A DNA stretch of 34,113 nt from Fretibacterium sp. (GTDB lineage Bacteria; Synergistota; Synergistia; Synergistales; Aminobacteriaceae): contig JAAYOR010000032.1 in NCBI GenBank assembly GCA_012520235.1, positions 1 to 34,113 on the forward strand, in the 5' to 3' direction. Below are positions 13,446-31,157 of the stretch, piece by piece. The position numbers and the translations under genes were made by a program. The notes below the pieces were generated by a model that ran no database searches, had not been told where the DNA came from, and worked only from the letters and a program-made list of their open reading frames with translations. Positions within the stretch are counted from its first letter, which is position 1. Every line of letters starts with the position of its first letter.

Positions 13446-14408
13446 TTACGATATCGACGGGGTGTCGCCGCAGTGCTCGGTCCAGAGGCTGCGTAAGAGA
13501 TCCGGAAGGTCCTCTCCGCCCCGGCAGATGACCACCAACCTGTGGCGTGCAGCCGGGCTGACGCTCTCCTCGGCGGCCTCTCTCAGCTCCGTCCCGCCGG
13601 AGGTCCCGTCCACATGCACCCAGCCCTCCATCCCCGGAGAGCGCAGGAAGCCCTTGATCCTCCAGATGTGTCCTTGTACGGCCTCGCAGAAGGCGCTCAG
13701 GGCCTCAGGCTCGTACTCCCCTTTGGCCTGGAGCACAAAGGTGTTCATCCGATAGGGAATCCCGCTGGTGGACGACTCCCCCTGATAGCCGTGGTTGCTG
13801 AGGCGCGAATCCAAAAGCTCCAGAGGGATCTCGGCGTAGGATGTGTCGTAAACGAAGGCGCCCGGGTTCAGCTCCCCTATCTTCTCGTGGATCTCCTCAA
13901 TTTGCTCCGGGGGGACCAGGTCGGTCTTATTGACGAGGATGAGATCGCTGCTCCGGATCTGGTTCTGGGTGGGCATGAGCAGCTCCACATAGTCCAGAAA
14001 GGTCTGGCTGTCCACCAGGCAGATGGAGCCGCGGTAGTCGTAAGGACGTTTGAAGTAGGGCGCCATCCGCTCCAGGATGCTGTTCATGGACGAGGGGTCC
14101 GCCATGCCCGAGTTCTCGATGATCAGGGTGTCGATAGGCTGTTCGGTGAACGCCTTGAGGGTGCGCATGAATCCGTCCTTCAGACAGGCACAGAAGATGG
14201 ATCCGTTGTTGATCTCCACCATCTTGACGTCCTGATCCTTCATGGTGCCTCCATCGATGCCGACGCTCCCGAACTCGTTGACGAGGAGGCCCAGACGCCG
14301 CCGGTCCGAATAGCCATCGATCAGGCGCTTGAGTAACGTCGTCTTGCCTGAGCCCAGAAATCCGCTGAGCAGATACAGTTGGATGGGTTGTTGTTCCATA
14401 TTGTTCAT
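13446..14408 (-). CDS. CobW/G3E-family GTP-binding protein
   Basis: The 320-residue cytosolic protein belongs to the SIMIBI/G3E GTPases that deliver metals or cofactors to target enzymes (CobW, UreG, HypB, MeaB relatives). Walker A is SGFLGSGKTT (15-24) and the guanine-specificity motif is NKTD (160-163). Where CobW proteins have a GCxCC metal motif this one has FCAC (C73, C75), after NNGSI. The C-terminal CobW_C-like half is present and degenerate. ATG 14408 is chosen because GGGAGG lies 5 nt upstream; a TTG at 14411 is also in frame. It is the last gene of the minus-strand operon, 36 nt after the lipoyl-domain gene, which suggests a chaperone or activator role for another operon product. 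Confidence 0.85.
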   Translation of the reverse strand: MNNMEQQPIQLYLLSGFLGSGKTTLLKRLIDGYSDRRRLGLLVNEFGSVGIDGGTMKDQDVKMVEINNGSIFCACLKDGFMRTLKAFTEQPIDTLIIENSGMADPSSMNSILERMAPYFKRPYDYRGSICLVDSQTFLDYVELLMPTQNQIRSSDLILVNKTDLVPPEQIEEIHEKIGELNPGAFVYDTSYAEIPLELLDSRLSNHGYQGESSTSGIPYRMNTFVLQAKGEYEPEALSAFCEAVQGHIWRIKGFLRSPGMEGWVHVDGTSGGTELREAAEESVSPAARHRLVVICRGGEDLPDLLRSLWTEHCGDTPSIS

Positions 14409-14444
14409 CAATACCTCCCGCTTCTAAATCTTTTGACGAACCCC

Positions 14445-14750
14445 TCACGCTCCCACAGCAATGTGGCCAAGGACGGAGGAGGCGTCAAACTCGTCGCCCT
14501 CCGCCACCAGGATATCGCAGAGCACGCCGGAGGCGGGGGAGGGCAGCTCCACCGTCATCTTCTCGACCTCTGCCTCACAAACGGTCTCACCCTCCGCCAC
14601 TGCGTCGTCCAGCGCCTTGAGCCAGAAGACGATCCCGGTCTTGAAGGTCATCTCCACCGGACGATCCTGGCAGGGACAGGGATTTTCAAGATCCTTTTTG
14701 GGCATGAGGAACTCCGGCACCGTGATGGGGACTTTTTTTATGTCTTTCAT
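14445..14750 (-). CDS. Stand-alone lipoyl/biotinyl-domain protein
   Basis: The 101-residue protein is a single lipoyl-type swinging-arm domain, resembling the E2 lipoyl domain of 2-oxoacid dehydrogenases (ETVCEAEVEKMTVELPSPAS). K64 in the EVEKM turn is the expected modified lysine. The tight turn and following PSPASG favour lipoyl over biotin attachment, which normally shows an MKM signature. The N-terminus is unusual, with a CPC pair (C25, C27). No E1, E2, E3, glycine-cleavage or carboxylase partner lies nearby, so it probably carries an acyl, sulfur or methylene group for an operon enzyme. GAGGAGGTGG precedes the ATG; the DUF5714 gene ends 13 nt upstream. Confidence 0.85.
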   Translation of the reverse strand: MKDIKKVPITVPEFLMPKKDLENPCPCQDRPVEMTFKTGIVFWLKALDDAVAEGETVCEAEVEKMTVELPSPASGVLCDILVAEGDEFDASSVLGHIAVGA

Positions 14751-14763
14751 TTAGGCCACCTCC

Positions 14764-15360
14764 TCAGGACGCTTTACGATAATCAGGATGGTAGGGACAG
14801 CGCACCCTGATGCACTCCTTGTTGTTATCGTGGAACTCGCAGACCACAGGCTCGTCGGGCAAATTCAGCTCCAGCAGCTCCCGGATGCGGGGAATGGCGC
14901 TGTGCAGCGCCCCGTAAACGGCCCGCTTGCAGCAGCGGGGGCCTCCCATGGCGGCCAGAGCCAGGAGCGCCTTGCCGGTCTCCTCGTTCCCGTAAGCCCA
15001 GGACTTAGTGGAGAGGGGGCTGGTGTCGGTGATGAGGCTCCAGAAGATGCCGACGCCCACCGCTGCACCGCAAGCGCCGAGGAAGCCGCAAGAGCCGCCG
15101 GGAACGCTCCGTCCCCGCTCCGTCGCCTCTTCCAGGTCTGCCCTCAGGGTCTCCTCGTCCCGGCCCTGGCGCTTGCGAACCTCGCTAAGCAGGAGGGCCG
15201 GCACCAGATAGTGGTGGATGGGGGCGTGTATGGGGAAGCTTTCGTGCTTCATCATTGCGGTAGCTCGGGCAGACAGGGGCTGGAACCCGGCGGAGGCTAA
15301 GTAGTCCAGACAGTCCCGCGTGATGACCTCAGCATACCGATCAAAAGTTTCGTCGTGCAT
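14764..15360 (-). CDS. Cys-rich DUF5714-like protein of unknown function
   Basis: The 198-residue soluble protein resembles DUF5714 members; no biochemical function is known to me for that family. It is rich in paired cysteines in conserved-looking contexts: GGSCGFLGACG, GGPRCCKRAVYGAL and, at the C-terminus, CEFHDNNKECIRVRCPYHP. That pattern would suit an iron-sulfur cluster or a metal/corrinoid site. A His-rich stretch IHAPIHHYLVPALLL lies near residue 45. The start at 15360 matches AAGGAGGA about 7 nt upstream; an upstream in-frame start at 15393 has no such site. It is followed closely by the lipoyl-domain gene. Confidence 0.75.
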   Translation of the reverse strand: MHDETFDRYAEVITRDCLDYLASAGFQPLSARATAMMKHESFPIHAPIHHYLVPALLLSEVRKRQGRDEETLRADLEEATERGRSVPGGSCGFLGACGAAVGVGIFWSLITDTSPLSTKSWAYGNEETGKALLALAAMGGPRCCKRAVYGALHSAIPRIRELLELNLPDEPVVCEFHDNNKECIRVRCPYHPDYRKAS

Positions 15361-15491
15361 CAAGATTCCTCCTTCATTACAGCTCTCTGCCAACTTTAGG
15401 CCTTTTTGTATCCATCTTTAGACGGTGCGTTTAGATTGTAAATCCAAGGACACGAACAAGCCATCCCAGACATTTCCTTGAGTCAAGATGC
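15361..15491 (-). other. Gap within the minus-strand operon
   Basis: 131 nt between the ABC ATPase stop and the DUF5714 start. It contains the DUF5714 ribosome binding site and some AT-rich sequence but no confident promoter or terminator. The last three genes could have an internal promoter here. Confidence 0.3.
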
Positions 15492-16256
15492 CTAAGCTAT
15501 AACAGCCTCCGAGGCCAGCAAATCCTGCACCTCCCGGCAAAGCCGGACAAAGGTGCCATCAAACCGGTCCCGCGGCCGACAGAGCGCTACGGGGATATCG
15601 GCCCGGATACGGCCCGGCGTGCGGCTCATCACCAGGATACGGTCCGCGAGCGTGACTGCCTCCTCCACATCGTGGGTTACGAACAGGGATGTCCCGTTCG
15701 TCTCCTTCATCAGGGAGAGGAACAGCTTGTGCATCTCCCTGCGGGTCAGCGCATCCAAGGCACCGAAGGGTTCGTCCATCAGCAGCACCCGCGGCCTCAG
15801 GATCAGCACGCGGGCTAAGGCCACCCTCTGCTGCATCCCCCCGGAGATCTGGCGAGGGAGATAATCGCCAAAGGACGCCAGCCCCACCTTCTCCAGGTAG
15901 CGGTTCACCTCCGAGTCCAGCGTTCCGCGAGGCATCTTTCGCCGCGCGCCAAAGGCGACGTTCTCCCGGACGGTCAGCCAGGGGAAAAGGGCATCCTCCT
16001 GAAACACCATGCACCGGTCCGAACCAGGGGCCGTGATCCGCTCTCCACCGATCTCAACATGCCCCGCATCGGGCAGGAGAAAGCCGGCGACAATCCGCAG
16101 CAGCGTGCTCTTGCCGCAACCGCTCCTGCCGAGCAGACACACCTGCTCCCCCTCCATGATGTCGCAGCTCACCCCGGAGAGCACTTCCAGGACATCTCCG
16201 CCGTTTCGGAACACCTTGGAGACACCCTTCAGGGAGAGGAGCGGCCGTCCGGTCAT
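15492..16256 (-). CDS. ABC transporter ATP-binding protein (SsuB/TauB/NrtD type)
   Basis: The 254-residue ATPase has Walker A GRSGCGKST (about 43-51), a Q-loop in MVFQEDALFPWLTV, signature SGGMQQR, Walker B VLLMDEPF, a D-loop (GALDALTR) and the H-switch in FVTHDVEEA. The EDALFPWLTVRENVAFG segment is typical of the nitrate/sulfonate/taurine/thiamine-precursor import subfamily. It energises uptake by the permease and binding protein encoded directly upstream; only 1 nt separates it from the permease stop. Confidence 0.93.
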   Translation of the reverse strand: MTGRPLLSLKGVSKVFRNGGDVLEVLSGVSCDIMEGEQVCLLGRSGCGKSTLLRIVAGFLLPDAGHVEIGGERITAPGSDRCMVFQEDALFPWLTVRENVAFGARRKMPRGTLDSEVNRYLEKVGLASFGDYLPRQISGGMQQRVALARVLILRPRVLLMDEPFGALDALTRREMHKLFLSLMKETNGTSLFVTHDVEEAVTLADRILVMSRTPGRIRADIPVALCRPRDRFDGTFVRLCREVQDLLASEAVIA

Positions 16257-16257
16257 G

Positions 16258-17046
16258 TTATCCTCCTATCCTCCGTGCCGAGCGAAAGCATATTTGCATC
16301 GAGGCCGTCAGCAACAGGTCGCTCAGCCGTCCCATCACGGCAATGACGACGATCCCCACGATGATGATGTCGACACGGCCCAGCATCCTCGCGTCCATGA
16401 TGACCGCCCCCAGACCGTTGGGAACCCCGGTGAGCTCTCCCAGCACCAGATAAGCCCAGGAGACCCCCAGACCCAGCCTCAACCCGGCAAGGATCTGGGG
16501 CATGGCCGCCGGAAGCAGGATAGTCCAGACGCTTCTCAAAGGCCCCACCCCCATCATTGCCCCGGCCTGACACAGGGCAGGGCTGACACCACGCACGCCA
16601 CTCGCTGTGTTAAGGTAGACCGGGAAAAACGCCGCCATGGCGACCAGGAACACCGTCGTTCCCAGCCCGATGCCGAACCACGCCATGGCCAGGGGCAGCC
16701 AGCTTATCCCCGGAACCGCGCGTGCGCCGTCAAGGGTCGTGCTCAAAAGGCTCCGCACCGTTGGGTTCCTCCCCGAAAGGACACCCAGAGGCAGGCCCAA
16801 CAGCACGGCAACACCAAACCCCAGGGCAACCCGTACCAGGCTCGCCATAACGTCGCCGGAGAAGCGCCCGGCATAGGGGGCACTTCCCGGCTGTCCAAAG
16901 ACATAGATGGAAAACGAACGCACGATCCGCCACGGTTCGGGGAGGAGATAGCCCGGCATCCACCCCATCCCACTGACAAGGACCCAGGCCGCCAGCAGCA
17001 AGGCAGGCAGCAACCAGGGCAAAAGACGCGCAGTGGCGTTCCTCAA
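16258..17046 (-). CDS. ABC transporter permease (SsuC/TauC type)
   Basis: The 262-residue inner-membrane protein has about six hydrophobic segments. Its BPD-transporter EAA loop reads QAGAMMGVGPLRSVWTILLPAAMPQI, the contact site for the ATPase. The N-terminal LPEPWRIVRSF and the SWAYLVLGELTG stretch fit the SsuC/TauC/ThiX-like subfamily. Its ATG overlaps the binding-protein stop by 4 nt, so the genes are translationally coupled. Substrate class is not set by the permease itself. Confidence 0.92.
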   Translation of the reverse strand: MRNATARLLPWLLPALLLAAWVLVSGMGWMPGYLLPEPWRIVRSFSIYVFGQPGSAPYAGRFSGDVMASLVRVALGFGVAVLLGLPLGVLSGRNPTVRSLLSTTLDGARAVPGISWLPLAMAWFGIGLGTTVFLVAMAAFFPVYLNTASGVRGVSPALCQAGAMMGVGPLRSVWTILLPAAMPQILAGLRLGLGVSWAYLVLGELTGVPNGLGAVIMDARMLGRVDIIIVGIVVIAVMGRLSDLLLTASMQICFRSARRIGG

Positions 17047-17996
17047 AGCCCCAGTTCCTCCCGCACCTTTTTGACGAAGCTCAGGTCGAAGAGCTTATCG
17101 TAGTCCGGCTGGCGGTCAATCACCTTAAGCGCCTCCATCCGGGCCCCAAGAGCCTTGGCCCTCTCGACGAAGCTCTCGTCGATCAGCCAGGCCAGCTCAA
17201 TGTTCTCCGCCGACAGGTCCAGGATCTCGCGCTCCGTGCCGAACGAGACCGCCTTCTCCAGCCAGGCGTCAGGGTTCTGCTGCAAAAACAGCGTCGCCTT
17301 GACGTGGGCGCGCACCAGATCCAGGACCCGCTCGGGGTTCTTCTCGATGTTCTCCTGCGTCGTCAGCATCCCCGCATTGATGGCCCCCACGCTATCCTCG
17401 TAATAGGGGTAGGCAAGGATATGGCCGTATCCTTCACGGACCGCCAAGGTGGGGAACGGCTCCCCCGAGAGAAAAGCATCAATGGAACCGCGCGACAGAG
17501 CCGTCCCCATATCAAAGAAGTCCACGCGCATCAGCTCAACATCCGTATCGGGAGAGAGCCCGCTACGGGTCAGGGCCTCACGGAGCAGGATCTCGTGCAT
17601 CGTCCCCGGCACATAGCCGATCTTTTTGCCTTTCAGGTCGGCGATGCTCTTAACCGGACCATCCTTCGCCACCACCAGGGCCGAGCACTTGTTGCACAGG
17701 GCCGTCACGAGCACCACCGGCTGTCCCTGGGACGCGGAGTGGATGGCATGAGCCAGGGTCGTCCCGCACATCTCCAGGCTCCCAGCCAGAAGTGCGGTCT
17801 TCTGGTCCGCGGGGTTGGTGAAGGACAAAACCTCGACATCTCCCTCAAGGTGATCCTGGTAGAAAAACGGAGCGATGGTCTGAGCCGTCTTCCACGTCCC
17901 CACCCGGAACCCCTCGGACGCATGTGCGGGGACACAAAAGACCGCCAAAACCAAGATAACCGCCGCCAAAGACCTTAAGAAATCCCTTACAGCCAT
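17043..17996 (-). CDS. ABC transporter substrate-binding protein (NMT1/SsuA-like)
   Basis: The 317-residue periplasmic binding protein has a signal peptide (about 1-26, cleavage after AHA). The mature type II fold shows ADQKTALLAGSLEMCGTTLAHAI and the linker KSIADLKGKKIGYVPGT that are typical of NMT1/THI5/SsuA binding proteins. Such proteins bind sulfonates, nitrate, taurine, pyrimidine precursors or aromatic acids. A CNKC pair (ALCNKCSALVV) is unusual for the family and could be a disulfide or metal site. The ligand is unknown. The gene sits 27 nt after the radical SAM gene, so the import system and that enzyme are likely co-transcribed. Confidence 0.9.
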   Translation of the reverse strand: MAVRDFLRSLAAVILVLAVFCVPAHASEGFRVGTWKTAQTIAPFFYQDHLEGDVEVLSFTNPADQKTALLAGSLEMCGTTLAHAIHSASQGQPVVLVTALCNKCSALVVAKDGPVKSIADLKGKKIGYVPGTMHEILLREALTRSGLSPDTDVELMRVDFFDMGTALSRGSIDAFLSGEPFPTLAVREGYGHILAYPYYEDSVGAINAGMLTTQENIEKNPERVLDLVRAHVKATLFLQQNPDAWLEKAVSFGTEREILDLSAENIELAWLIDESFVERAKALGARMEALKVIDRQPDYDKLFDLSFVKKVREELGL

Positions 17997-18023
17997 AAAA
18001 AAGCTCCTCCTTGAATTAAATTC

Positions 18024-19358
18024 CTATGCACCAGGTGATGTTTCCAGTTGTCCGATCAGGCATGTTAACGTGGAAGCGTATTCTTTCAATGTTTTTCTCC
18101 AATCGTCAAGGCAATTGGAGCCTGCATCAGTAATGGCATATACCGTTCCGTCATGATGTACTAAGCCGCGCTGTTTCATTATATTCAGGAAACGATATGT
18201 GGCAGCCATGTCCGGTATCGCATGTTGGTATGTCGCATATTCTCCCATCTGCTTCTGAACGGCATAACCGGTCTGGGCTCCTTGACTTAAAATATTCAGA
18301 ATGATGGGCTGCATGAATTTCTCCAGATTCCCGCCCTGGCAGGCGCACTTACGCCGCTTTGTATTCTGCGCCGGAGGCGAGGAAAGCTGATAACCCCCCT
18401 TTTCAAGAAGCTCCCGGGCATGCTGTATGTCCCTTTCGGCCCGGTCTTTTTCTGTAAATTCGGCGTCTCTCGGCACGGCGCCAGACTCCACGACCACAAC
18501 GTTTGCTCCGCTGCTTACGGCCTCTTGTGAGGCGGGATGGACACAGATATCCCTCACCGTGTTGCCGCCCGAAAGACGAAGTGCAGCAATGACATGAGCC
18601 AGATAGGATTCATCTACCATAGGTATACCGTCGCCAAGAGGAGTTCCTTTGACCGGAAACCGCGCCATGGCGCCGCAGATCTTCGTGCCGCAGGACACCG
18701 CGTTCAGAAAACAGTCAGCGATCTCTTGCGCGCTATGCTCCGGGCCAAGCGGTTCCACAAGGCTGATGAGCGACATTTGTGCGTCGGTGATGCTGTTCAT
18801 TGAGTAACGTCGCTTCTCGGGTGAAAAGGGCGTGTCCGTCCCCTCTCTGAGCCTGAGCGAATGATAGACGCCGTATACATCCGCCGCGGCAACGCGGTTT
18901 GCGGTCACGAAGTCAAGCTCACCCGTATTTAATATGATTTCGTAGTTTCCGGGGATCTCTCTCCGGATGTGGGGAACCAGCTCTAAAAGAGCGTCAAGAC
19001 TGTAAAACTCCGTGGTCCGCAGCACGATATATGATGCTCCTGCGGCAACATAGCCATGTACATACTCAAAGATTTCCTCTTCGGTCATGTGGCGGCTCTG
19101 CTCGATCAAGCCCCATTTCTCCCCAAAAGAACAGAATTTACAGTTCATAGCACAAGGCGCATAGTCCATGCCGATTGCGCACCATATATACCCTTTGCCC
19201 AAAGCAACACGAGAGGCTGTGCGCCGCGCGGCCTCTCTGAGTCCCTGATCTTCCGGGCTACCGACCGGGATTTCCAGAAGGGCAATGATCTCATCTCGCG
19301 ATAACACCGTGCCCTTAAGACATTTTTCTTCGCAAAGCTTGATAAGTTTCTCAGCCAT
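18024..19358 (-). CDS. Radical SAM protein (BioB-like) fused to a PadR-type regulator domain
   Basis: The 444-residue product has two parts. Residues about 1-335 are a BioB/HydE/PylB-like radical SAM barrel with the cluster motif C69xxxC73xxC76 (APCAMNCKFCSFG) and later barrel elements (YHSLRLREGTDTPFSPEKR; RFPVKGTPLGDGIP). After a linker with a CAC motif (RRKCACQGG), residues about 349-430 match a PadR winged helix (QPIILNILSQGAQTGYAVQK; ITDAGSNCLDDW). PadR proteins are normally separate repressors, so an enzyme-regulator fusion is unusual; the reading frame is continuous. The C-terminal coding part is AT-rich (24 G+C of 60 at 18061-18120, by hand count), unlike its neighbours, suggesting transfer. 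A GAGG element precedes the ATG. It heads the ABC/DUF5714/lipoyl/GTPase operon. Confidence 0.85.
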   Translation of the reverse strand: MAEKLIKLCEEKCLKGTVLSRDEIIALLEIPVGSPEDQGLREAARRTASRVALGKGYIWCAIGMDYAPCAMNCKFCSFGEKWGLIEQSRHMTEEEIFEYVHGYVAAGASYIVLRTTEFYSLDALLELVPHIRREIPGNYEIILNTGELDFVTANRVAAADVYGVYHSLRLREGTDTPFSPEKRRYSMNSITDAQMSLISLVEPLGPEHSAQEIADCFLNAVSCGTKICGAMARFPVKGTPLGDGIPMVDESYLAHVIAALRLSGGNTVRDICVHPASQEAVSSGANVVVVESGAVPRDAEFTEKDRAERDIQHARELLEKGGYQLSSPPAQNTKRRKCACQGGNLEKFMQPIILNILSQGAQTGYAVQKQMGEYATYQHAIPDMAATYRFLNIMKQRGLVHHDGTVYAITDAGSNCLDDWRKTLKEYASTLTCLIGQLETSPGA

Positions 19359-19399
19359 TCAATATATCCTCAAGTATTCTCTATACACCAAAGATCACC

Positions 19400-19531
19400 T
19401 TACAGCATTCCGAATAAATTTCCCTGCATGACTTCTTCCATTTCATCCGGCACAGCTGCCTTGAGCGCTGTCTGTTGGTCCCACTCAAGAGATTCCGCAA
19501 ATTCGCCGAATACTGCTTGGGAGCTATCCAT
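19400..19531 (-). CDS. Possible small ORF or gene relic at the operon head
   Basis: The minus strand encodes a 43-residue acidic peptide from ATG 19531 (ending QGNLFGML). The same frame is open further upstream to about 19600 without a standard start and keeps protein-like composition (KTSIKEKQALQDFGKGMDSS). It lies between the promoter at about 19616-19644 and the radical SAM gene. No good ribosome binding site was seen. It could be a conserved small protein with a non-standard start, or the tail of a decayed gene. No family recognised. Confidence 0.3.
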   Translation of the reverse strand: MDSSQAVFGEFAESLEWDQQTALKAAVPDEMEEVMQGNLFGML

Positions 19532-19600
19532 GCCTTTGCCAAAATCCTGAAGAGCCTGTTTTTCTTTGATTGACGTTTTTATCCTGGGATTAATAGCTCT

Positions 19601-19628
19601 TTGTTTACTAGACTAAGTCTAGTATCTT
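19601..19628 (+). promoter_or_regulatory. Candidate divergent promoter for the MetH-activation-like gene
   Basis: TTGTTT (19601-19606) and TATCTT (19623-19628) are 16 nt apart with the palindrome between them. Both elements are imperfect, so this is tentative. Confidence 0.35.
19607..19623. promoter_or_regulatory. 17-bp palindromic operator candidate
   Basis: ACTAGACT-A-AGTCTAGT is a perfect 8-bp inverted repeat with a 1-nt centre. It overlaps the -10 element of the minus-strand promoter and fills the spacer of a candidate plus-strand promoter, so one bound dimer could control both directions. The PadR domain encoded next to it is the obvious candidate ligand, by inference. Confidence 0.6.
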
Positions 19629-19644
19629 AGATTTATTTTGTCAA
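19616..19644 (-). promoter_or_regulatory. Promoter of the radical SAM-ABC operon
   Basis: On the minus strand a consensus -35 TTGACA (19644-19639) is 17 nt from TAGACT (19621-19616, 4 of 6 consensus). Transcription would start near 19609, about 250 nt before the radical SAM ATG. Confidence 0.65.
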
Positions 19645-19667
19645 TGCAAGCTTCCAATAACGACTAT

Positions 19668-19686
19668 TCGTTCCAAATGGGAACGA
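19668..19686. promoter_or_regulatory. Second palindrome upstream of the MetH-activation-like gene
   Basis: TCGTTCC (19668-19674) and GGAACGA (19680-19686) form a perfect 7-bp inverted repeat with a 5-nt AAATG centre, between the divergent promoters and the plus-strand gene. It could be a second operator or an mRNA hairpin. Confidence 0.4.
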
Positions 19687-19737
19687 TTGGAAGCGAATAA
19701 GCCCCGAAAAGCATTGAAGCGAAGGGAAAAGACGCCC

Positions 19738-20424
19738 ATGCCACAGGAACTTTTGCGCACAAATATGAAGTTTGTTCTGAACGAGTCGGCTCTTTTGGAG
19801 CGCCTGCACTGCGAGCCGGACAGCGATACCTTCGCCCGCGCCCTGGAGCTGGCGGACTCGGTCAAAGACCTGATTCATCCGGGATTCGCAGTCAAAAAAC
19901 TCGCCCTTGACGGGGTGGATGAAAAGGGCGTGAGGGTCGGGGACATTTTTTTTGAAAGCCGTATCGTCGCAAAGAAATTGAAGGGCGAGAGCAGTGTGTT
20001 CGCCTATGTCGCGACCTGCGGCAGAGAGCTGAGCGATCGCATTGAGGGGACGGAAGACCTGCCGGACAGGCATCTCCTGGGCGAGATTGCCTATCAGGCT
20101 TACCTCTCCGTCATGGAAGTCATGACCCTGGACGTGGAAAGGACGTTCGGGATAGAGCGGAAGATTTATCTCCGCCCTGGCTCCATCAGGGACTGGAAGG
20201 TCACTGAGATCCGGAAAATATTCACCCTTCTTGGCAGACTGTGCGACGACCTGGACGTCAGAGTGCTGGACAACGGCATGATCGTTCCTCTCAAGTCCAC
20301 ATCCGGCATCTTCTACGCCAGCGACGAGGAGTTTTCAAGCTGCGCCCTCTGCCCCCGTGCCCATTGCGAGCTGCGGACAATGCCCTTTGACGAAGAGCTC
20401 CACAGCGAGATGCACCGCCACTGA
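19738..20424 (+). CDS. Stand-alone B12-dependent methionine synthase activation-domain-like protein
   Basis: The 228-residue protein resembles the C-terminal reactivation domain of cobalamin-dependent methionine synthase, which binds SAM and re-methylates oxidised cob(II)alamin after reduction. Recognisable parts are FAYVATCGRELSDRI, the SAM-site-like YLRPGSIRDWKVTEIRKIF, MIVPLKSTSGIFY and a C-terminal Cys group CALCPRAHC (C202, C205, C210). Stand-alone forms occur in anaerobes next to corrinoid methyltransferases, but none is in view here. ATG 19738 is chosen because GAAGGGA precedes it by about 10 nt; a TTG at 19687 and an ATG at 19765 are alternatives. It is divergent from the radical SAM operon with a shared regulatory region. 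Confidence 0.8.
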   Translation: MPQELLRTNMKFVLNESALLERLHCEPDSDTFARALELADSVKDLIHPGFAVKKLALDGVDEKGVRVGDIFFESRIVAKKLKGESSVFAYVATCGRELSDRIEGTEDLPDRHLLGEIAYQAYLSVMEVMTLDVERTFGIERKIYLRPGSIRDWKVTEIRKIFTLLGRLCDDLDVRVLDNGMIVPLKSTSGIFYASDEEFSSCALCPRAHCELRTMPFDEELHSEMHRH

Positions 20425-21738: not shown

Positions 21739-21828
21739 GGCTTACGACGTGAAAAAAATCAGCGCCGAGCCCGGGAGCGAAGAGCCCCTGACCGGTGCAT
21801 GGAAAATTCTGAGAAGACATGGAGCTGA
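21601..21828 (+). pseudogene. Truncated pucR N-terminal copy
   Basis: The frame from ATG 21601 reads VISLIVRELLLLPGLTEAEL, which matches the start of the intact regulator (AISLTVRELLTLPELAEAEL) at 15 of 20 positions. Similarity fades after GVDVMDGRG (about residue 46), and the rest is unrelated up to the stop at 21828, which overlaps the amidohydrolase start. It lacks the GGDEF-like and helix-turn-helix parts. It is most simply a duplication relic, though a short truncated PucR-domain peptide could still be made. Only about 14 nt separate the predicted transcript start from the ATG and no ribosome binding site is visible. Confidence 0.7.
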
Positions 21829-23345
21829 TGGCTTTGAACGGAGACAGACAGCACGCGGATCTGGTCCTCAAGCGTGGGACCGTGATCACAATGGATCCGG
21901 AGCGGCGCATTCTGGAGAACGCCTCCGTGGCGGTGAAGGGGACGCGCATCGTTGCTGTGGGGCCGGCGGAGGAGATTGAGGCAAACTATCGGGCCGAGCG
22001 TGAGATTGACTGCTTTCGCAAGGCGATCCTGCCGGGCCTGATTGATGCGCACGGCCACGCGGGGCACGCGTTGCTCAAGACGATCGGTGCGGACACGCCC
22101 AGTCACTGGATGCACATTGCCACACCGACGTACCATCACTACACGACGGACGAATTCTGGTACGTTGAGGCTCGCCTTGCGGCTCTGGAGCGCCTGAAGA
22201 TGGGCGTCACCTGCGGGGTCAGCGTGATCAGCTCGGCCCAGCGGAGCGACGATCCGGTGTTCGGTAGCAACAACGCTCGGGGCTACGCCAGCGTGGGCAT
22301 TCGGGGCGTGGTGGCCGTCGGGCCCTGCAACCCCCCGTTTCCGCGCAAGTTCAGCCGCTGGAAAAACGGGGTTCGTCACGAGGTCGAGGTTTCCTTCGAG
22401 GCGATGATGGAGGGGGCCGAGGGTGTCATTGAGGCTTGGGACGGCGGCGCAGACGGACGCATTCGGGTCTTCATCGCTCCGTTTGTCCTGCTGACTTCAA
22501 TCTTCAGCTCCGGACCCTCCGCAGCGGACGTCGCGGTGAGCCTGTCGGATCACGATCGCCTGATGATGCGCCGGGTCCGTGAAGTTGCGGCGAAACATGG
22601 CGTGCGCATCCACACGGAGGCGTTTGGCGGGATGGTGCGGCTGGCTCGCCGGTGCGAGCACGCGCTGCTCGGACCGGACGTGCACATCCAGCACTGTACG
22701 GGCATCTCCTTTGAGGAGGCGCAGATATTGGCGGAGACCGGGACCCACGTGACCAGCGCACCCGGCTACGGGCAGGCCAACGGACGCTGCCCCATCCCCG
22801 AGCTGATCGGGTTGGGTGCGAACGTGGCGATCACGACGGACGGGAACTCGCCGTCCACGCCGTTCGACCTGTTTCAGGCGGCAAGGAAGACCCAGCTGAT
22901 TCAGCGCCTTCTCTGCCGTGACCCCTTTTTGCTCCCGGACGGCAAGGCGTTGGAGATGATTACGATCGACGCTGCGAAGGCGCTGGGCCGGGACGAGGAG
23001 ATCGGGTCGCTTGAGCCGGGCAAGCGCGCGGATATCGCCGTGCTGAACCTATGGCAGCCACACCTGGTGCCGAACGTCATGCCGGTGCACCGCGTGATCT
23101 GCGAGTCGGTGGGGCACGATGTAGAGACTGTCCTGGTGGACGGGCGCGTCCTCATGGAGGGGCGCCGCGTTCTGTCCGTCGACGAGGACGAGGTGCTGAG
23201 TGAGGGCGAGGACGAAGCACGCCGCCTGATCGAGCGCGCGGGGCTGGAGCGGCATATGGCGCTGCCCAAGACCTTCTGGGGCCACGCGCAGGGCTGGCTG
23301 GACGAACAACGGGTGGATTATGATGCCCTGCTCAGCCGCCCGTAA
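21819..23345 (+). CDS. Amidohydrolase (ATZ/TRZ-like metal-dependent hydrolase)
   Basis: The 508-residue cytosolic enzyme of the amidohydrolase superfamily hydrolyses or deaminates an amide, urea or heterocyclic C-N bond. The metal site is intact: H78xH80 in LPGLIDAHGH, then IHTEA, IQHCTG and the catalytic Asp in ITTDGNSPSTPFDL. The composite beta-sandwich halves (DLVLKRGTVITMD at the start; LEPGKRADIAVLNL near the end) are present. A disordered-looking 40-residue C-terminal extension follows. Both ATG 21819 and ATG 21828 have poor ribosome binding sites. It lies in a pair with the next amidohydrolase, between two copies of the pucR promoter, so a role in purine or ureide breakdown is likely; the substrate is unknown. 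Confidence 0.87.
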   Translation: MELMALNGDRQHADLVLKRGTVITMDPERRILENASVAVKGTRIVAVGPAEEIEANYRAEREIDCFRKAILPGLIDAHGHAGHALLKTIGADTPSHWMHIATPTYHHYTTDEFWYVEARLAALERLKMGVTCGVSVISSAQRSDDPVFGSNNARGYASVGIRGVVAVGPCNPPFPRKFSRWKNGVRHEVEVSFEAMMEGAEGVIEAWDGGADGRIRVFIAPFVLLTSIFSSGPSAADVAVSLSDHDRLMMRRVREVAAKHGVRIHTEAFGGMVRLARRCEHALLGPDVHIQHCTGISFEEAQILAETGTHVTSAPGYGQANGRCPIPELIGLGANVAITTDGNSPSTPFDLFQAARKTQLIQRLLCRDPFLLPDGKALEMITIDAAKALGRDEEIGSLEPGKRADIAVLNLWQPHLVPNVMPVHRVICESVGHDVETVLVDGRVLMEGRRVLSVDEDEVLSEGEDEARRLIERAGLERHMALPKTFWGHAQGWLDEQRVDYDALLSRP

Positions 23346-23409
23346 CGAGCCGGGGTCCCCCGCGCACCAAGGTGCTGTCCGGAGTTCTTGAAAGGAGCGA
23401 TTTTTTAAA

Positions 23410-24873
23410 GTGAGGACAAAACTGAGCGCAAAGTACGTCATAGCGTTCGACGGGGCGCGACACATACTGTTGCGTGACGGCCAGGTGGTGTTTGAGGGAA
23501 ACTCCATTGTCTTTGTCGGGCGCGACTATCCGGGGAGCTGTGACGAAGAACTGGACTGCGGGAACGCGATAATCAGCCCCGGCTTCGTCGATCTGGATGC
23601 GCTGGGCGACATTGACCACGGTCTGATCCACTGCGAGGCCCCGAAGGAGATCGAGAACCACCTGATTTGGAGTCGCGCGTACTACGAAAAGGGCAGCCGA
23701 GAGATCCTCTCCGCGGAGGAGGAGGCGTTCAAGTCCCTCTACGCCTACGTCCAGTTGATCCGGCACGGTGTCACGACGGCCATGCCCATCACGTCGGTGT
23801 ACTACAAGCGCTGGGCGGAGACCTACGAGGAAATTGAGGCCGCCGCGCATCATGCGGGGCGGCTGGGATTGCGGGTTTACCTCGGACCCAGCTACCAGTC
23901 GGGGATGCGGGTTGTCAACCCCGATGGGACTTGGGAGGTGCTCTTTAATGAGGACGAGGGGCGCAGAGGCCTGGAGCGCGCCGTGCGGTTCGTCGAGGAG
24001 TTCGATGGAGCTTACGACGGGCGTGTTTGCGGTGTGCTGGTCCCGGAACGGATCGAGTGCCAAACGGAGGAGAATCTCCTTGTGACGCGAGCGGCGGCCG
24101 ATCGGCTGGGGTGCCGCGTCCGTTTGCACGCCGCACAGGGCAGCTTTGAGTACGGCTGGATCCGTAATCGCCATGGGCTCACGCCGATTCAGTATCTGGA
24201 CCGGCTCGGCTTTTTGGGCCGCACGACGCTGATCCCTCATGTCCTGTACACCCAGGGGTACAGCGAGATCCACGACGATCCTGTTGGGGATGATGTGGCG
24301 TTGCTGGCCCGCACCGGGACAACCGTCATCCACTGTCCGCTGGTTTACGCCCGCTCGGGCGCAGCGCTCGAATCGTTCGGGCGTTATCGCAGGGCCGGGG
24401 TCAACATGGCGATGGGCACGGACACCTTCCCACCCGACATGCTGGCGGCCATCCGCATTGGCAGCATCATGGCCCGTTGCGTGGACCGAGCCCGGGAGGG
24501 CAACACCTACGCGGACTTCTTCGAGGCGGCGACACTGGGTGGCGCGCGGGCGCTGGGCCGCGATGATCTGGGCCGCATCGCGGCGGGCGCGCGGGCGGAT
24601 ATGATCGTCCTGGACTTGGACGGACTGGACGTCGGCACGATCGACGACCCGCTGAGGACGATCGTCAACTCCGGGACATCCCGGGAGGTACGGCACTCAA
24701 TCATCGACGGCCGCTTCGTGATGCGTGATCGCGTTATCGAGGGCGTAGACGAGGCGGAGCTGCGCGATCGGGCGCAGGCGTACTACGAGAAAATGCGCAT
24801 GGGCTACTGGGAGCGGAGCGACGGGTCTCTGACGCCCGAGCAGCTGTTCCCGGGCTCTTTTCCGGAAAAATGA
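23410..24873 (+). CDS. Amidohydrolase-like protein with altered HxH motif
   Basis: The 487-residue protein has the amidohydrolase composite fold (start DGQVVFEGNSIVFVG; end IAAGARADMIVLDLDGLDVG) with barrel elements RLHAAQG, LIPHVLY and the Asp of MAMGTDTFPPD. The usual DxHxH after beta-strand 1 is replaced by SPGFVDLDALGDIDH: the HxH positions are occupied by Asp61 and Asp63, and His70 follows. So it may bind a metal differently or have lost part of the alpha metal site. GTG 23410 fits AAAGGAG at 23392-23398 with 11-nt spacing. It probably works with the preceding amidohydrolase, perhaps as its partner subunit or on the next intermediate. Confidence 0.83.
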   Translation: MRTKLSAKYVIAFDGARHILLRDGQVVFEGNSIVFVGRDYPGSCDEELDCGNAIISPGFVDLDALGDIDHGLIHCEAPKEIENHLIWSRAYYEKGSREILSAEEEAFKSLYAYVQLIRHGVTTAMPITSVYYKRWAETYEEIEAAAHHAGRLGLRVYLGPSYQSGMRVVNPDGTWEVLFNEDEGRRGLERAVRFVEEFDGAYDGRVCGVLVPERIECQTEENLLVTRAAADRLGCRVRLHAAQGSFEYGWIRNRHGLTPIQYLDRLGFLGRTTLIPHVLYTQGYSEIHDDPVGDDVALLARTGTTVIHCPLVYARSGAALESFGRYRRAGVNMAMGTDTFPPDMLAAIRIGSIMARCVDRAREGNTYADFFEAATLGGARALGRDDLGRIAAGARADMIVLDLDGLDVGTIDDPLRTIVNSGTSREVRHSIIDGRFVMRDRVIEGVDEAELRDRAQAYYEKMRMGYWERSDGSLTPEQLFPGSFPEK

Positions 24874-25175
24874 CCATGGAGGCTCCGGCGCAAATACGAG
24901 GATTCATCGGGCGGCACAGGAGGGTTGGAGCGTCCCGAGTGGCTCGACAAGACACGGTCTCCAAGGTGCTCTTCAGCCTTGCGCCGCGTCGATTTGTCCG
25001 CAAGAACCCTGAGACCTGGCGGTATCGGGTGGGCTACCGTCTGGTGGAGCGCATCTGTCTCAAGTGCGGCTACAAGATCGAGCCGGGCAAGGGGTTGTGG
25101 TGTCCCTTCGGGCCCGTCTTTTTTGTCTGCGCCGGCCGTTTGGGTATAATGGTCTTTAGAACGCAGCTTTTGTGA
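24870..25175 (+). CDS. Uncertain small ORF overlapping the amidohydrolase stop
   Basis: The ORF starts with an ATGA overlap with the amidohydrolase gene and keeps GC-rich third positions over about 70 codons. It encodes a basic stretch then CLKCGYKIEPGKGLWCPFG, which looks like a partial zinc ribbon. Its last 30 codons run through the duplicated hairpin and promoter of pucR, which argues that this end is not under coding selection. It may be a small real protein with a frayed 3' end or a fragment of a larger lost gene. No family recognised. Confidence 0.35.
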   Translation: MTMEAPAQIRGFIGRHRRVGASRVARQDTVSKVLFSLAPRRFVRKNPETWRYRVGYRLVERICLKCGYKIEPGKGLWCPFGPVFFVCAGRLGIMVFRTQLL

Positions 25176-25307
25176 GGGGGTGGTTGCCATTTCTCTGACC
25201 GTCCGAGAGCTTCTGACACTTCCTGAGCTTGCCGAAGCGGAACTGATCGCCGGAGAGGGCGGGCTGGACCGGCCGGTGCGGAGCGTCAACGTTATGGAGG
25301 CGCCGGA
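25099..25307 (+). repeat. Duplicated pucR promoter and 5' end, copy 2 (intact)
   Basis: Partner of 21532-21738 in direct orientation, 3.57 kb downstream. This copy continues into the complete regulator gene and so is probably the parent. Confidence 0.85.
25123..25150 (+). promoter_or_regulatory. Promoter of pucR
   Basis: TTGTCT (25123-25128) and TATAAT (25145-25150) with 16-nt spacing, directly after a hairpin and T run. The predicted transcript start near 25157 leaves a very short leader of about 23 nt. Confidence 0.8.
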
Positions 25308-26763
25308 CATAGCCCGGTGGCTGCGCGGCGGGGAGCTCCTGCTCTCCACCGGCTATCAGTTCCGTGACGAGCCGGAGGACTTCGAAGATCTGGTGATGGC
25401 CCTCCACGGGGCTGGGGCGGCGGCGTTGGGGTTTAAGAACCGCTTTATCCATGAGTTTCCCGCTCACGCCAAGGACCTGGCCGAGTGGCTGAGGATGCCC
25501 ATCCTCAGCCTGCCGCTGGAGCTGCCCTATTCGGACATCATCCGCATCGTCATCCTGCGGACGGACGAGGTGGAGAACATCCGCTTCTCCGAGTCCGTGC
25601 TCCGCTCATTCTTCCAGCTCGTGGCCGAGGGCGGGGGCGCCGAGCGGATCGTCGAGAACCTGATGTACTTTCTCAAGACCGAGGTCTGTTTTATGGACGC
25701 GGTGTCGGGGCGGTGTTTCTGCGCCGCTCAGGGCAGCTTCAGCAACGTGTCGAGCGCACAGGAAAGAAAAGAGCTTCTGGAACGGCACTACAACGAACGG
25801 ATCGGCCTGGCCAATGCGACGTATGGCTACTTCATTTTCAAGCGCTGGCCCGAGGGCAACGCGTGGAGAGTCGTCCTGGAGCATGCGAAGACCGCGATGC
25901 TCTTCAGCTTCCAGAGGGACATCGCTGCCAGACAGGTGGAGTCGCGCTATCGGGACGAGTTTGTGCAGGATCTGATCACCCGAAACATCCGATACCGTGA
26001 GGAGCTCCTGAACCGGGGGCTTCAGTTCGGATGGGACCTGTCCGGAGCCGTCCGCTGTGTCATTTTCGACATCGACAACTACAAGCGGCATTTCGGCCAG
26101 CTGATGTCGGAACAGGAGGCGCAAGACCTGGAGGAGTCCCGTCAGCGCATCTACGCGCTGTGCAAGCAGGAGATGAAGGCTGTCTTCCGGGAGTGCCCGT
26201 ACTCCGCCATGAGCGACTCGATCGTCTTCCTGACGACGCCGAGCTTGAATGAGGATTTTTTGTCCAGGCTTCGTGAGGTAGTGGAGCGCGTTCGGGAGAG
26301 GGTGCGAGCCTGGACGGGCTTCACCCTGACGGTGGGTTGCGGCGATGAGAGGCCGGACTTCATGGGCTGCGAAGAGAGCTACGAGGAGGCCCGGCAGTCT
26401 ATTGAAATGATGCGCCCCTCCTGCGGGGGCGATACGTTGTATGTTTGGGAGGAACTGGGCGTCCTCACTGTGCTCGCGCAGGTGAGCGGGAGTGGGGCGG
26501 CCCGGAAGTTCTGCGCGCATCGGCTGGGGGAGCTGCGGCATCAGGACACACACTCCGAGCTGTTCGACACGCTCCAGACGCTCGTGAGGTGCGGTTGGAA
26601 CCTGAGGGAGGCGGCTCGGGAACTGCGCATCCACTACAACACCGTCCGATATCGCTACGAGCGGATTTGCGAGCTCGTCGGCGATCTCTCCGGGGTCGAA
26701 GCACGGCTGGAGATGGCTGTAGCCCTGAAGTTGTTGCGTCTCAACCCCAGGCTTCGGGATTGA
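25180..26763 (+). CDS. PucR family transcriptional regulator
   Basis: The 527-residue regulator has the PucR ligand/sensor domain (about 1-125: TVRELLTLPELAEAELIAGE, VNVMEAPDIARWLRGGELLLS), a middle region with a GGDEF-like fold (about 280-400, without a GGDEF signature) and the C-terminal PucR helix-turn-helix (about 460-515: LVRCGWNLREAARELRIHYN, TVRYRYERI). PucR of Bacillus controls purine catabolism in response to allantoin-pathway intermediates, and the same role here fits the downstream ureide genes. The start GTG 25180 has a GAGGGGG stretch that is too close for normal spacing; no earlier start exists in frame. The gene's 5' end and promoter are duplicated 3.57 kb upstream. Confidence 0.9.
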   Translation: MVAISLTVRELLTLPELAEAELIAGEGGLDRPVRSVNVMEAPDIARWLRGGELLLSTGYQFRDEPEDFEDLVMALHGAGAAALGFKNRFIHEFPAHAKDLAEWLRMPILSLPLELPYSDIIRIVILRTDEVENIRFSESVLRSFFQLVAEGGGAERIVENLMYFLKTEVCFMDAVSGRCFCAAQGSFSNVSSAQERKELLERHYNERIGLANATYGYFIFKRWPEGNAWRVVLEHAKTAMLFSFQRDIAARQVESRYRDEFVQDLITRNIRYREELLNRGLQFGWDLSGAVRCVIFDIDNYKRHFGQLMSEQEAQDLEESRQRIYALCKQEMKAVFRECPYSAMSDSIVFLTTPSLNEDFLSRLREVVERVRERVRAWTGFTLTVGCGDERPDFMGCEESYEEARQSIEMMRPSCGGDTLYVWEELGVLTVLAQVSGSGAARKFCAHRLGELRHQDTHSELFDTLQTLVRCGWNLREAARELRIHYNTVRYRYERICELVGDLSGVEARLEMAVALKLLRLNPRLRD

Positions 26764-27097
26764 GGTGACCGCTCTGGCAGCGTCACAGGGCGACGATGGC
26801 ACCGGTAGCGATGTGGCCCAGGCGGTCGCCTCTTCCCCGTGCAGTGTCCGGTGTAAAAATGCACGAGGAGCCCAGGGGTAATCACTTTGTAACATATATA
26901 CTACCATTATCTCTAATTTTTATACCCATCTTACAATGCTTTTCCTTCCCCATTTCGCTATAATCTTACTTGCAGAGAGAAAAGGTGCGTCCCTTGCGTC
27001 CTCGGAGCGCTCTGGTTGCCCCACGTTTTTGTGGTGAGGTGACTTGCGAGGAAAGGGTGTCCCTTCTCAAAAAATCAAGATAAGGCGGTGTTTTACA
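26764..27097 (+). other. Intergenic region between pucR and allE
   Basis: 334 nt without a gene. It turns AT-rich from about 26880 and holds a -10-like TATAAT. Short stems near the ribosome binding site (CCAC with GTGG around 27020; AAGGG with CCCTT around 27055-27066) are seen but not assigned. It is a plausible site for PucR binding. Confidence 0.4.
26959..26964 (+). promoter_or_regulatory. Candidate -10 element for the ureide operon
   Basis: TATAAT lies in an AT-rich stretch 134 nt upstream of the allE start. No good -35 element sits 16-18 nt upstream, which would fit an activator-dependent promoter, for instance one using PucR. Confidence 0.45.
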
Positions 27098-27871
27098 ATG
27101 GGTTATCCAAAGGGAAATCTGACGACGCGAGCTCTGGTGAAGCCTGGGATTTATACGGTGATTCCTCCAGAGGGGCGGGTCAAGAATGTGCTGCCGTTCT
27201 TCGAGGGGTTCTCCACCACGATTCTGGCCTCCCCGAAGTACGGTGCCAGTTTTGTCTTTTACATCTCCACGGTGGAGCCGGGTGCCAAGACCACGCGCAC
27301 CTGGTGCGCGGAGCCGGGCATTGAGACCTTCGTCTACTTCATGGATGGTGAGGGCGAGCTGACGGTTAAGATCGGTGGTGAGGAGAAGGTTCTGAAGCAG
27401 GGCGGTTTCGCTTATTCTCCTGAGGGAGTGGGCATGGATTTTGCCAACAAGTCCAAGGGGACAATGCGCATCCTGTTCTACAAGCAGCGCTACACGCCTC
27501 TTGAGGGGCACTCCGCGCATGTCGTCTGGGGCAACGTCAACGACATCCAGGAGACCATCTACGACGGCATGGCCAACGTCTTCCTCAAGGATCTGCTGCC
27601 CACGGACGATCTGGGCTTTGATATGAACTTCCATATTCTGAGCTTTGAGCCCGCCGGTTGCCATCCCTTCATTGAGACACACGTACAGGAGCACGGGGCC
27701 TACATGCTGTCGGGCCAGGGCGTCTACATCCTGGGCGAGGACTTCGTGCAGGTGCAGAAGGAGGACTTCGTCTGGTTTGGGCCCTTCACGCAGCAGGCCG
27801 TTTACGCCACGGGGCGTGAGCGACTGACCTACATCTATTCCAAAGACTTCAACCGGGACGCCGAGATTTAA
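27098..27871 (+). CDS. allE: (S)-ureidoglycine aminohydrolase
   Basis: The 257-residue bicupin hydrolyses (S)-ureidoglycine to (S)-ureidoglycolate and ammonia in allantoin breakdown. Two cupin domains are visible. The C-terminal one carries the manganese-ligand set in PFIETHVQEHGAYMLSGQGV (Glu, His and His) and Gln in FGPFTQQAVYATG; the closing YIYSKDFNRDA is typical of AllE. ATG 27098 fits AAGGCGG with 9-nt spacing; an upstream in-frame start at 27044 lacks a site. It is first in a plus-strand run with the carbamoyltransferase 29 nt downstream. Confidence 0.92.
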   Translation: MGYPKGNLTTRALVKPGIYTVIPPEGRVKNVLPFFEGFSTTILASPKYGASFVFYISTVEPGAKTTRTWCAEPGIETFVYFMDGEGELTVKIGGEEKVLKQGGFAYSPEGVGMDFANKSKGTMRILFYKQRYTPLEGHSAHVVWGNVNDIQETIYDGMANVFLKDLLPTDDLGFDMNFHILSFEPAGCHPFIETHVQEHGAYMLSGQGVYILGEDFVQVQKEDFVWFGPFTQQAVYATGRERLTYIYSKDFNRDAEI

Positions 27872-27900
27872 CCGGCTTATCTGAAAGGGGACACTATTTT

Positions 27901-28917
27901 ATGGCCTTGCCGAAGAGTTTTACTCCGTTCCAGATTAAGGACAAGCTGGCGGAGACAGGACTTAAGGGGAAAAATTTTGAGTTCCTCACGGATTATTCGC
28001 GCGCACAGCTCCAGAGCCTCTTCGAGGCAGGAGAGATGCTGGAGCCCTACTGGCGTTCCAAGCTGACCCTGCTGGAGGGCAAGGTGTTGGCTACGCTCTT
28101 CTTCCAGCCCAGCACCCGCACGCGTTTCAGCACGGAGCTTGCCATGCTGCGCCTCGGGGGGCAGGTGCTCTCCGAGTCAAACCCCACCACCAGCTCCTCG
28201 ACCGCCAAGGGGGAGTCGCTGTCGGACTACCTCCGCACGGTCTCGAACTATGCGGACATCATCGCTCTCCGCCATCCCGACGAAAATGAGGTCTTTCCTG
28301 CGCTTTCCGGCGCCCGTGTCCCCGTGATCAGTGGGGGTTGGGGTAATGTCACGCACCCCACTCAGGGGCTTCTGGACGTCTATACCATCTACCGGGCCCT
28401 GGGGCGTTTCGAGGGGATTAAAGTCATGATCGCCTCCTCGGATCTGTCTCGGGCGCGCAGCGGGCACTCCTTTGCGCTGGGGCTGGCTACGATGGGGGCT
28501 GAGCTGGTGTACGTCGGCACAAGCGTCAACGCCATCCCGCAGGTCATCATGGACAAGATTAAGGCGACCGGAGCTAAGGTGACGGTGCACAACGACCTGA
28601 CCCACGAGGAATATATGGAGCTTATGGCCGAGGTGGACGCCTGCTACCTTCCGGGGTGCAGTGTCCCCAAGGACGACCCCGCGGCGCGTGCGGCTTTCCT
28701 GGACACGATCAAGCCTTTCTACATCTCCCTCGCCGACCTTGAAAATATTAAGAAAAAGACCGGCAAGGTCATCGGTATCATGCACTCCCTTCCCCGCAAC
28801 GACGTGGAGTTCGAGTACGCGATTGACGATAGTGAGTTCCAGCTCTACTTCCGCCAAGTGGCTTTCAGCGTACCCATCCGCATGGCGCTCATCGCTGGAA
28901 TGGTCGGTGTGGACTAG
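27901..28917 (+). CDS. Aspartate/ornithine carbamoyltransferase family protein, probably catabolic
   Basis: The 338-residue enzyme has the carbamoyl phosphate site of the ATCase/OTCase family: FFQPSTRTRFSTE, AKGESLSDYLRTV, HPTQGLLDVYTI and MHSLPR near the C-terminus. The second-substrate region differs from aspartate carbamoyltransferase: the usual RxQxER segment is replaced by LPGCSVPKDDPAAR, so the acceptor is probably not aspartate. Placed between allE and allantoinase, it may run in reverse, splitting a carbamoylated ureide product such as oxalurate with phosphate to give carbamoyl phosphate. YgeW-type carbamoyltransferases in purine-catabolic loci are a precedent. A terminator follows the gene. 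Confidence 0.85.
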   Translation: MALPKSFTPFQIKDKLAETGLKGKNFEFLTDYSRAQLQSLFEAGEMLEPYWRSKLTLLEGKVLATLFFQPSTRTRFSTELAMLRLGGQVLSESNPTTSSSTAKGESLSDYLRTVSNYADIIALRHPDENEVFPALSGARVPVISGGWGNVTHPTQGLLDVYTIYRALGRFEGIKVMIASSDLSRARSGHSFALGLATMGAELVYVGTSVNAIPQVIMDKIKATGAKVTVHNDLTHEEYMELMAEVDACYLPGCSVPKDDPAARAAFLDTIKPFYISLADLENIKKKTGKVIGIMHSLPRNDVEFEYAIDDSEFQLYFRQVAFSVPIRMALIAGMVGVD

Positions 28918-28931
28918 CTTTACTTTGACGA

Positions 28932-28968
28932 AGACGAGGAGCTCCCAAGGGCGCCCTCGTCTTTTTTT
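28932..28968 (+). terminator. Intrinsic terminator after the carbamoyltransferase gene
   Basis: AGACGAGG (28932-28939) pairs with CCTCGTCT (28955-28962), followed by a seven-T run. Genes downstream either have their own promoter or depend on readthrough. Confidence 0.75.
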
Positions 28969-29050
28969 GGTGAGTGTTTCAGACTGGATTTTGATGGCGC
29001 TGCCTTATATTCCGCACAGCACACAACAAAATTGAAGGAGACTGGTCTCA

Positions 29051-30310: not shown

Positions 30311-30343
30311 GACCCGCGCCGGAATGCACGAGGTGATAGCGAA

Positions 30344-31072: not shown

Positions 31073-31157
31073 TTCTAATATCCCCCCATATACAGTGATT
31101 TAGAGATGGAATCAGAGTTGGGGACTTTTTTCCCTACTAAAACGGAGGAAAAAAGGG

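Follow-up and report, generated by a model that had tools for sequence, protein, structure and literature searches.

Among the described corrinoid-dependent systems, the methylamine and quaternary-amine systems (MtmB/MttB-MtxC-MtbA-RamA), including MtqB (PMC13044021) and MthBCA (PMC12155760), provide the closest comparison for the locus reported here. MtqB is reported to be the first pyrrolysine-free MtmB given a function, in tetramethylammonium/choline use, whereas the functions of the others were left unknown (PMC13044021, 2026). We analyzed a 34,113-nucleotide stretch of Fretibacterium sp. (hereafter the window), which constitutes one contig (C155, 34 kb) in a genome of 2.33 Mb and 196 contigs, against 188 Synergistota genomes and clostridial contigs (L002, L003 and G197). 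The window contains a block of eight genes, seven on the minus strand (13446-19358) and one divergent on the plus strand (19738-20424), that encode a radical SAM-PadR fusion, an ABC importer, a DUF5714 protein, a lipoyl-type carrier, a G3E GTPase and a MetH-activation-like protein (Table 1). A first-pass annotation had described this divergent unit from the letters alone, and all of the protein types it named are present at or near the places it gave. The block is probably an accessory module, under PadR control, of a pathway for corrinoid-dependent methyl transfer, judging from gene order, co-occurrence and a shared DNA motif.

No corrinoid methyltransferase is encoded within the window, as the first-pass annotation had noted, but an MtmB operon exists elsewhere in the same genome, on contig C185. 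This operon encodes MtmB (PF05369, 5.6e-77), a corrinoid protein (PF02310/PF02607), UroD and RACo (PF14574), and adjoins cobalamin-synthesis-like genes. Substrate methyltransferase, corrinoid protein and reductive activase, the three parts of a corrinoid methyltransferase system, are thus all found on C185; no MttB (PF06253) was found in the genome. The operon resembles the methylamine and quaternary-amine systems in combining an MtmB-family methyltransferase and a corrinoid protein with an MtaA/MtbA-like UroD and a reductive activase. Against these systems as a group it is set apart by an MtmB whose amber site holds no in-frame stop, by the thioredoxin tail of its UroD and by the added module of PadR, DUF5714, G3E, importer, lipoyl and radical SAM proteins. 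The C185 MtmB shares 87% identity with the enzyme of genome G099, and its open reading frame is uninterrupted; like MtqB, it has no amber codon. Pyrrolysine-type MtmB proteins, with one in-frame TAG and scores above 710 bits, are encoded in two other genomes (G156, contig C77; G160, contig C7) and are clearly distinct from the pyrrolysine-free type. Type 1 mlp clusters (PMC10418091) also share an MtaA-like UroD, a corrinoid protein and a Ram/RACE activase with the C185-type operon. They need at least two Mlps together, however, whereas C185 shows a single UroD with MtmB, and no PadR module appears in the parts of their description consulted.

The link between the module and MtmB is borne out by co-occurrence. 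Window-type DUF5714, defined as at least 140 bits with the L089 query, occurs in 10 of the 188 Synergistota genomes, all of which have MtmB, compared to MtmB scores over the cut-off in 25 of the 188 (Fisher 2.7e-10). Counting by genus, which is fairer because kinship among genomes inflates the Fisher values, all seven DUF5714 genera have MtmB (p=2e-5). Similarly, 12 of 13 genomes with a PadR protein bearing the CxC motif have MtmB (p=2e-11). As a control, the Zn-ribbon type of DUF5714 is accompanied by MtmB in only 3 of 23 genomes (p=0.62).

Gene neighborhoods in other genomes further connect the parts. In sister families, PadR with an N-terminal CxC, DUF5714, an NMT1-type importer and G3E recur at four loci (L034, L078, L088 and L089), with variants of the set at two more (L084 and L087). 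G139 carries PadR, then radical SAM, DUF5714, the binding protein, the ATPase and the permease in that order; the radical SAM-PadR fusion of the window joins two genes that are adjacent there. In G099 and G140, PadR-G3E-DUF5714 is contiguous with genes for a BTAD-type regulator, a corrinoid protein, MtmB, an MtaA-like UroD-thioredoxin and NhaC. Further along, the sister MtmB operons encode a class III aminotransferase-family enzyme, followed by RACo and another MetH-activation-like protein, and the operon end reads RACo, this second MetH-activation-like protein and G3E in G012, or includes G3E and a broken DUF5714 in G176. Outside Synergistota, the clostridial contig G197 carries DUF5714 (49% identity), lipoyl (48%) and G3E (47%) genes in window order, followed by DUF6951 and a RACo-type corrinoid activase, and DUF5714 and lipoyl genes are adjacent in L002 and L003. 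Altogether, comparison of the loci shows that the PadR, DUF5714, G3E and importer genes are repeatedly found together, beside or within corrinoid-MtmB-UroD-thioredoxin-RACo operons, with a common predicted palindromic operator. The gene set is not a chance mix. The corrinoid link drawn by the first-pass annotation is thereby upheld. One ground on which that proposal was to fall, a lack of co-occurrence elsewhere, did not materialize: other genomes also carry the genes together.

The putative operator, with the consensus TAYTRGAC-N3-GTCYARTA, overlaps with the promoter predicted for the radical SAM-PadR operon and also stands before such operons in two phyla. The promoter was the joint best in a scan of the region, and its -10 element lies within the palindrome, in the layout of a repressor site. 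A PadR domain and a palindrome over a predicted promoter, the marks by which a PadR repressor is recognized in sequence, are both present, and we infer that PadR would bind at the palindrome. Both domains of the fusion protein match Pfam below the cut-offs (8.8e-6 and 2.6e-4) and are fused in frame; stand-alone homologues of the PadR part, which is a separate gene in relatives and carries a CxC motif, match PF03551 at 1.7e-13. In other genomes, operator sites lie 1-250 bp upstream of PadR, DUF5714, G3E, substrate-binding protein or radical SAM operons. At seven sister-genome loci the palindrome precedes PadR by 5-20 bp, at others it lies farther upstream of PadR, and matches occur before the radical SAM operon of G138 (14/16), the G3E gene of G148 (13/16) and the DUF5714-lipoyl pair of the Clostridiaceae contig L002 (16/16). 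In the scanned loci, eight sites match at 15 or more of the 16 positions where 0.0 are expected, and eleven at 14 or more (0.45 expected). These counts are somewhat circular because the consensus was refined on the same sites, and they include two loci (L033 and L091) from near-identical genomes. No site with at least 15 of 16 matches was found in additional DNA, mostly from the same genomes, and no strong site in 20 other contigs of the genome itself or in sister-genome MtmB regions.

Several observations weigh against an accessory role in methyl transfer. The window block and the MtmB operon lie on separate contigs in this genome, and the C185 operon has no operator. The genomes compared are related, so that the Fisher values overstate their independence, and many are fragmented metagenome-assembled genomes. 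The window-type DUF5714 is absent from at least 14 Synergistota genomes that do have MtmB, of which two carry the pyrrolysine type; the module is therefore optional, not required for MtmB. Moreover, in genomes of family f3, where no MtmB was detected, importer orthologues (~71% identity) adjoin a gene for a BioB-like radical SAM protein, and the importer may therefore feed the radical SAM enzyme instead of MtmB. The importer and the BioB-like radical SAM enzyme indeed form a partly separate module that is also found without MtmB. PDB relatives of the binding protein include SsuA and THI5. The radical SAM enzyme is BioB/PylB-like but a member of neither family, scoring 24.6 bits against a cut-off of 348 for PylB and 19.6 against 225 for BioB. 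At the three f3 loci L081-L083, the ~71% importer and the BioB-like radical SAM gene are accompanied by a gene for an apparent fusion of two rSAM/selenodomain-associated transferases; at least one of these loci also encodes a TVP38-like protein. A second BioB-like radical SAM gene of the genome itself (contig C147, L093) adjoins ABC transporter genes, and a neighboring protein there resembles a 2-thiouracil desulfurase by a weak, sub-threshold match.

The three proteins DUF5714, lipoyl and G3E each show distinctive conserved features. An alignment of 23 DUF5714 homologues revealed seven invariant cysteines, one fully invariant histidine and two further histidines that are nearly so. The AlphaFold2 model is all-alpha with a pLDDT (predicted local distance difference test) of 93.6, and its comparison with solved folds gave no PDB match better than E 0.9. 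DUF5714, for which a literature search gave no paper, is a sequence-distant relative of MbdU and may have a metal or redox role. In the DUF5714 tree, the window copy joins all lipoyl-linked and most PadR-linked copies at 97/97, the PadR-linked G013 copy standing outside this group. Zn-ribbon DUF5714 proteins of other loci adjoin TrsS, a selenoprotein family listed in PMC13188914: at L012, L013, L015 and L016 their gene immediately precedes that of a TrsS-like radical SAM protein, which at L012 scores 548 bits with the TrsS model (cut-off 490). In the lipoyl protein, an N-terminal CxC, E61, E63 and K64 are invariant among four aligned homologues, K64 being the conserved lysine of the E-x-E-K turn of lipoyl domains, and a lipoate-protein ligase, LplA, is encoded in the genome. 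Its AlphaFold2 model had low confidence (pLDDT 54) and was not used, and a search of viral contigs for the protein found nothing. Alignment of the window G3E with YjiA (1nij) showed that NGSIFCAC replaces the metal motif NGCICC, so the CxCC of CobW/YjiA metallochaperones is missing and metal binding, if any, must differ from that of YjiA. The SIFCAC form is also present in L152 and L033, and the window G3E clusters in the G3E tree with the clostridial L152 protein, that of G197, at 100/100.

The MetH-activation-like protein could instead lie outside the module and serve the split methionine synthase of the genome. Consistent with this, the MetH on contig C77 of the genome is short (815-827 aa) and apparently has no activation domain, and the window protein matches the fold of the TM0269-type MetH activation protein (PDB 1j6r) by profile. 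This likeness emerges only from a profile of its four-sequence family (E 7e-11); the protein itself has no Pfam match, nor a PDB match by single-sequence search. Unlike the TM0269 type, however, it has a C-terminal CxxC...C motif, and its 45% homologue in G146 adjoins not MetH but MttB, a corrinoid protein and UroD-thioredoxin. Moreover, it is present in only 3 of the 188 Synergistota genomes, one of them weakly, and the listed start of its gene is 63 bp from the operator, although the probable start is the ATG at 19738, which is preceded by the ribosome site GAAGGGAAAAG and agrees with the N-terminus of the homologue. A service to methionine synthase is unlikely.

A quite improbable alternative is a thiophilic-metal or organometal module, pictured as a cysteine version of the SAO (selenocysteine-assisted organometallic) and MbdU systems (PMC13188914), in which the importer, the CxC-bearing PadR, G3E, lipoyl and DUF5714 proteins import a metal or organometal and either detoxify or traffic it, the corrinoid link being incidental. 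The best NCBIfam models are indeed SaoA, SaoP and MbdU, CxC motifs occur in PadR, G3E and the lipoyl protein alongside the seven cysteines of DUF5714, and the thioredoxin tail of UroD resembles the HUIPC and ArsE families. Yet every match is far under its cut-off: 237.6 versus 360 bits for SaoA, 134 versus 295 for SaoP, 54.5 versus 300 for SaoX and, although DUF5714 aligns with the double selenoprotein MbdU, 61.9 versus 600 for MbdU. The window genes, DUF5714 included, have no internal UGA and form a different operon from SAO. No MerB-like lyase such as SaoL and no metal efflux gene was recognized in the window gene list, no family search having been made for them in the genome, and the strong association with MtmB/RACo operons is not predicted by a metal function.

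It is very unlikely that two unrelated units, the importer-radical SAM pair and the DUF5714-lipoyl-G3E trio, were joined by chance: the pair does occur without DUF5714 in f3 genomes and the trio without the pair on G197, but the PadR that elsewhere heads DUF5714 operons is here fused to the radical SAM enzyme, PadR, radical SAM, DUF5714 and importer genes are consecutive in G139, and the radical SAM operon of G138 has the PadR operator match. We rejected a relic of lipoate biosynthesis or glycine cleavage, as no such genes adjoin and the ties to corrinoid operons are strong, and also a pyrrolysine pathway suggested by the PylB match, which is far under the cut-off while the C185 MtmB has no amber codon.

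Taking the block as an accessory module of methyl transfer, we propose the following scheme, in which the individual proteins are assigned with far less confidence than the module as a whole. The PadR domain bound to the palindrome over the -10 element would repress the operon, and would be released on binding of a ligand or metal, perhaps at the CxC motif. The ABC importer may take up a small compound that is either the methylated substrate itself or a precursor used by the radical SAM enzyme. In this scheme the pyrrolysine-free MtmB would pass a methyl group to the corrinoid protein, from which UroD-thioredoxin would pass it to an acceptor, and the MetH-activation-like protein together with RACo would bring oxidized cobalt back into service. 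A metal or thiol step, for example loading or protecting Zn or corrinoid centers, might fall to G3E, DUF5714 and the lipoyl protein. More speculatively, and against long odds, DUF5714-lipoyl-G3E would be a new, PadR-controlled corrinoid methyl-transfer device in bacteria without coenzyme M, where a protein-bound dihydrolipoyl thiol would serve the MtaA-like enzyme with its thioredoxin tail by accepting or carrying the methyl group, or by delivering electrons or metal.

Table 1. Features of the eight-gene block and its control region, in window positions.
Feature	Position	Strand	Support
G3E/CobW-family GTPase	13446-14411	minus	PF02492 9.5e-39
Small free lipoyl/biotinyl-type carrier	14445-14750	minus	PF00364 6.9e-12
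DUF5714 protein, Cys-rich	14764-15360	minus	PF18978 1.4e-51
ABC importer ATPase	15492-16256	minus	best NCBIfam model SaoA, below cut-off; 63-64% identity to f3-family importer
ABC importer permease	16258-17046	minus	PF00528 3.5e-20; ~71% identity to f3-family importer
NMT1/SsuA-like substrate-binding protein	17043-17996	minus	PF09084 4.3e-26; SsuA_fam 9e-42, below cut-off
BioB/PylB-like radical SAM (~residues 1-330) fused to PadR (~331-436, window 18051-18368)	18024-19358	minus	
Palindromic operator TACTAGACTAAGTCTAGTA, proposed PadR site	19606-19624		16/16 to family consensus
Promoter-like site TTGACA-17-TAGACT	19616-19644	minus	10/12 consensus matches
Stand-alone MetH-activation-like protein, divergent	19738-20424 (listed start 19687)	plus	family profile vs 1j6r 7e-11

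A small minus-strand open reading frame of ~43 codons (MDSSQAVFGEFAESLEWDQQ..., 19400-19531) lies in the interval separating the operator from the radical SAM gene. No homologue of it was found in the compared loci; a gene for a C-GCAxxG-C-C protein stands at the matching position in G138. Elsewhere in the window, the neighbors at 21819-32543 resemble purine/allantoin catabolism as judged by eye from the gene list, and comprise two amidohydrolases, a PucR-like regulator, a cupin, and carbamoyltransferase-like and hydantoinase/allantoinase-like proteins.

The first-pass annotation had proposed one combined, undescribed system. The linked gene set does recur, but it is best understood as an accessory regulon serving a pathway whose kind is known, corrinoid methyl transfer, and not as a free-standing pathway; within it the importer and radical SAM pair is partly separate, and the lipoyl protein is a rare and optional part. 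In the literature searched, of which the selenoprotein part was covered incompletely, we found no account of the accessory regulon or its operator, nor any that connects DUF5714, the lipoyl protein and the altered G3E with corrinoid chemistry. Overall, synteny, co-occurrence and the operator tie DUF5714, an altered G3E, a free lipoyl-like carrier and a BioB-like radical SAM enzyme to a pyrrolysine-free MtmB pathway. The regulator, its DNA site and the importer offer handles on the inducer, and thereby on the substrate, which makes the function of the module directly testable.

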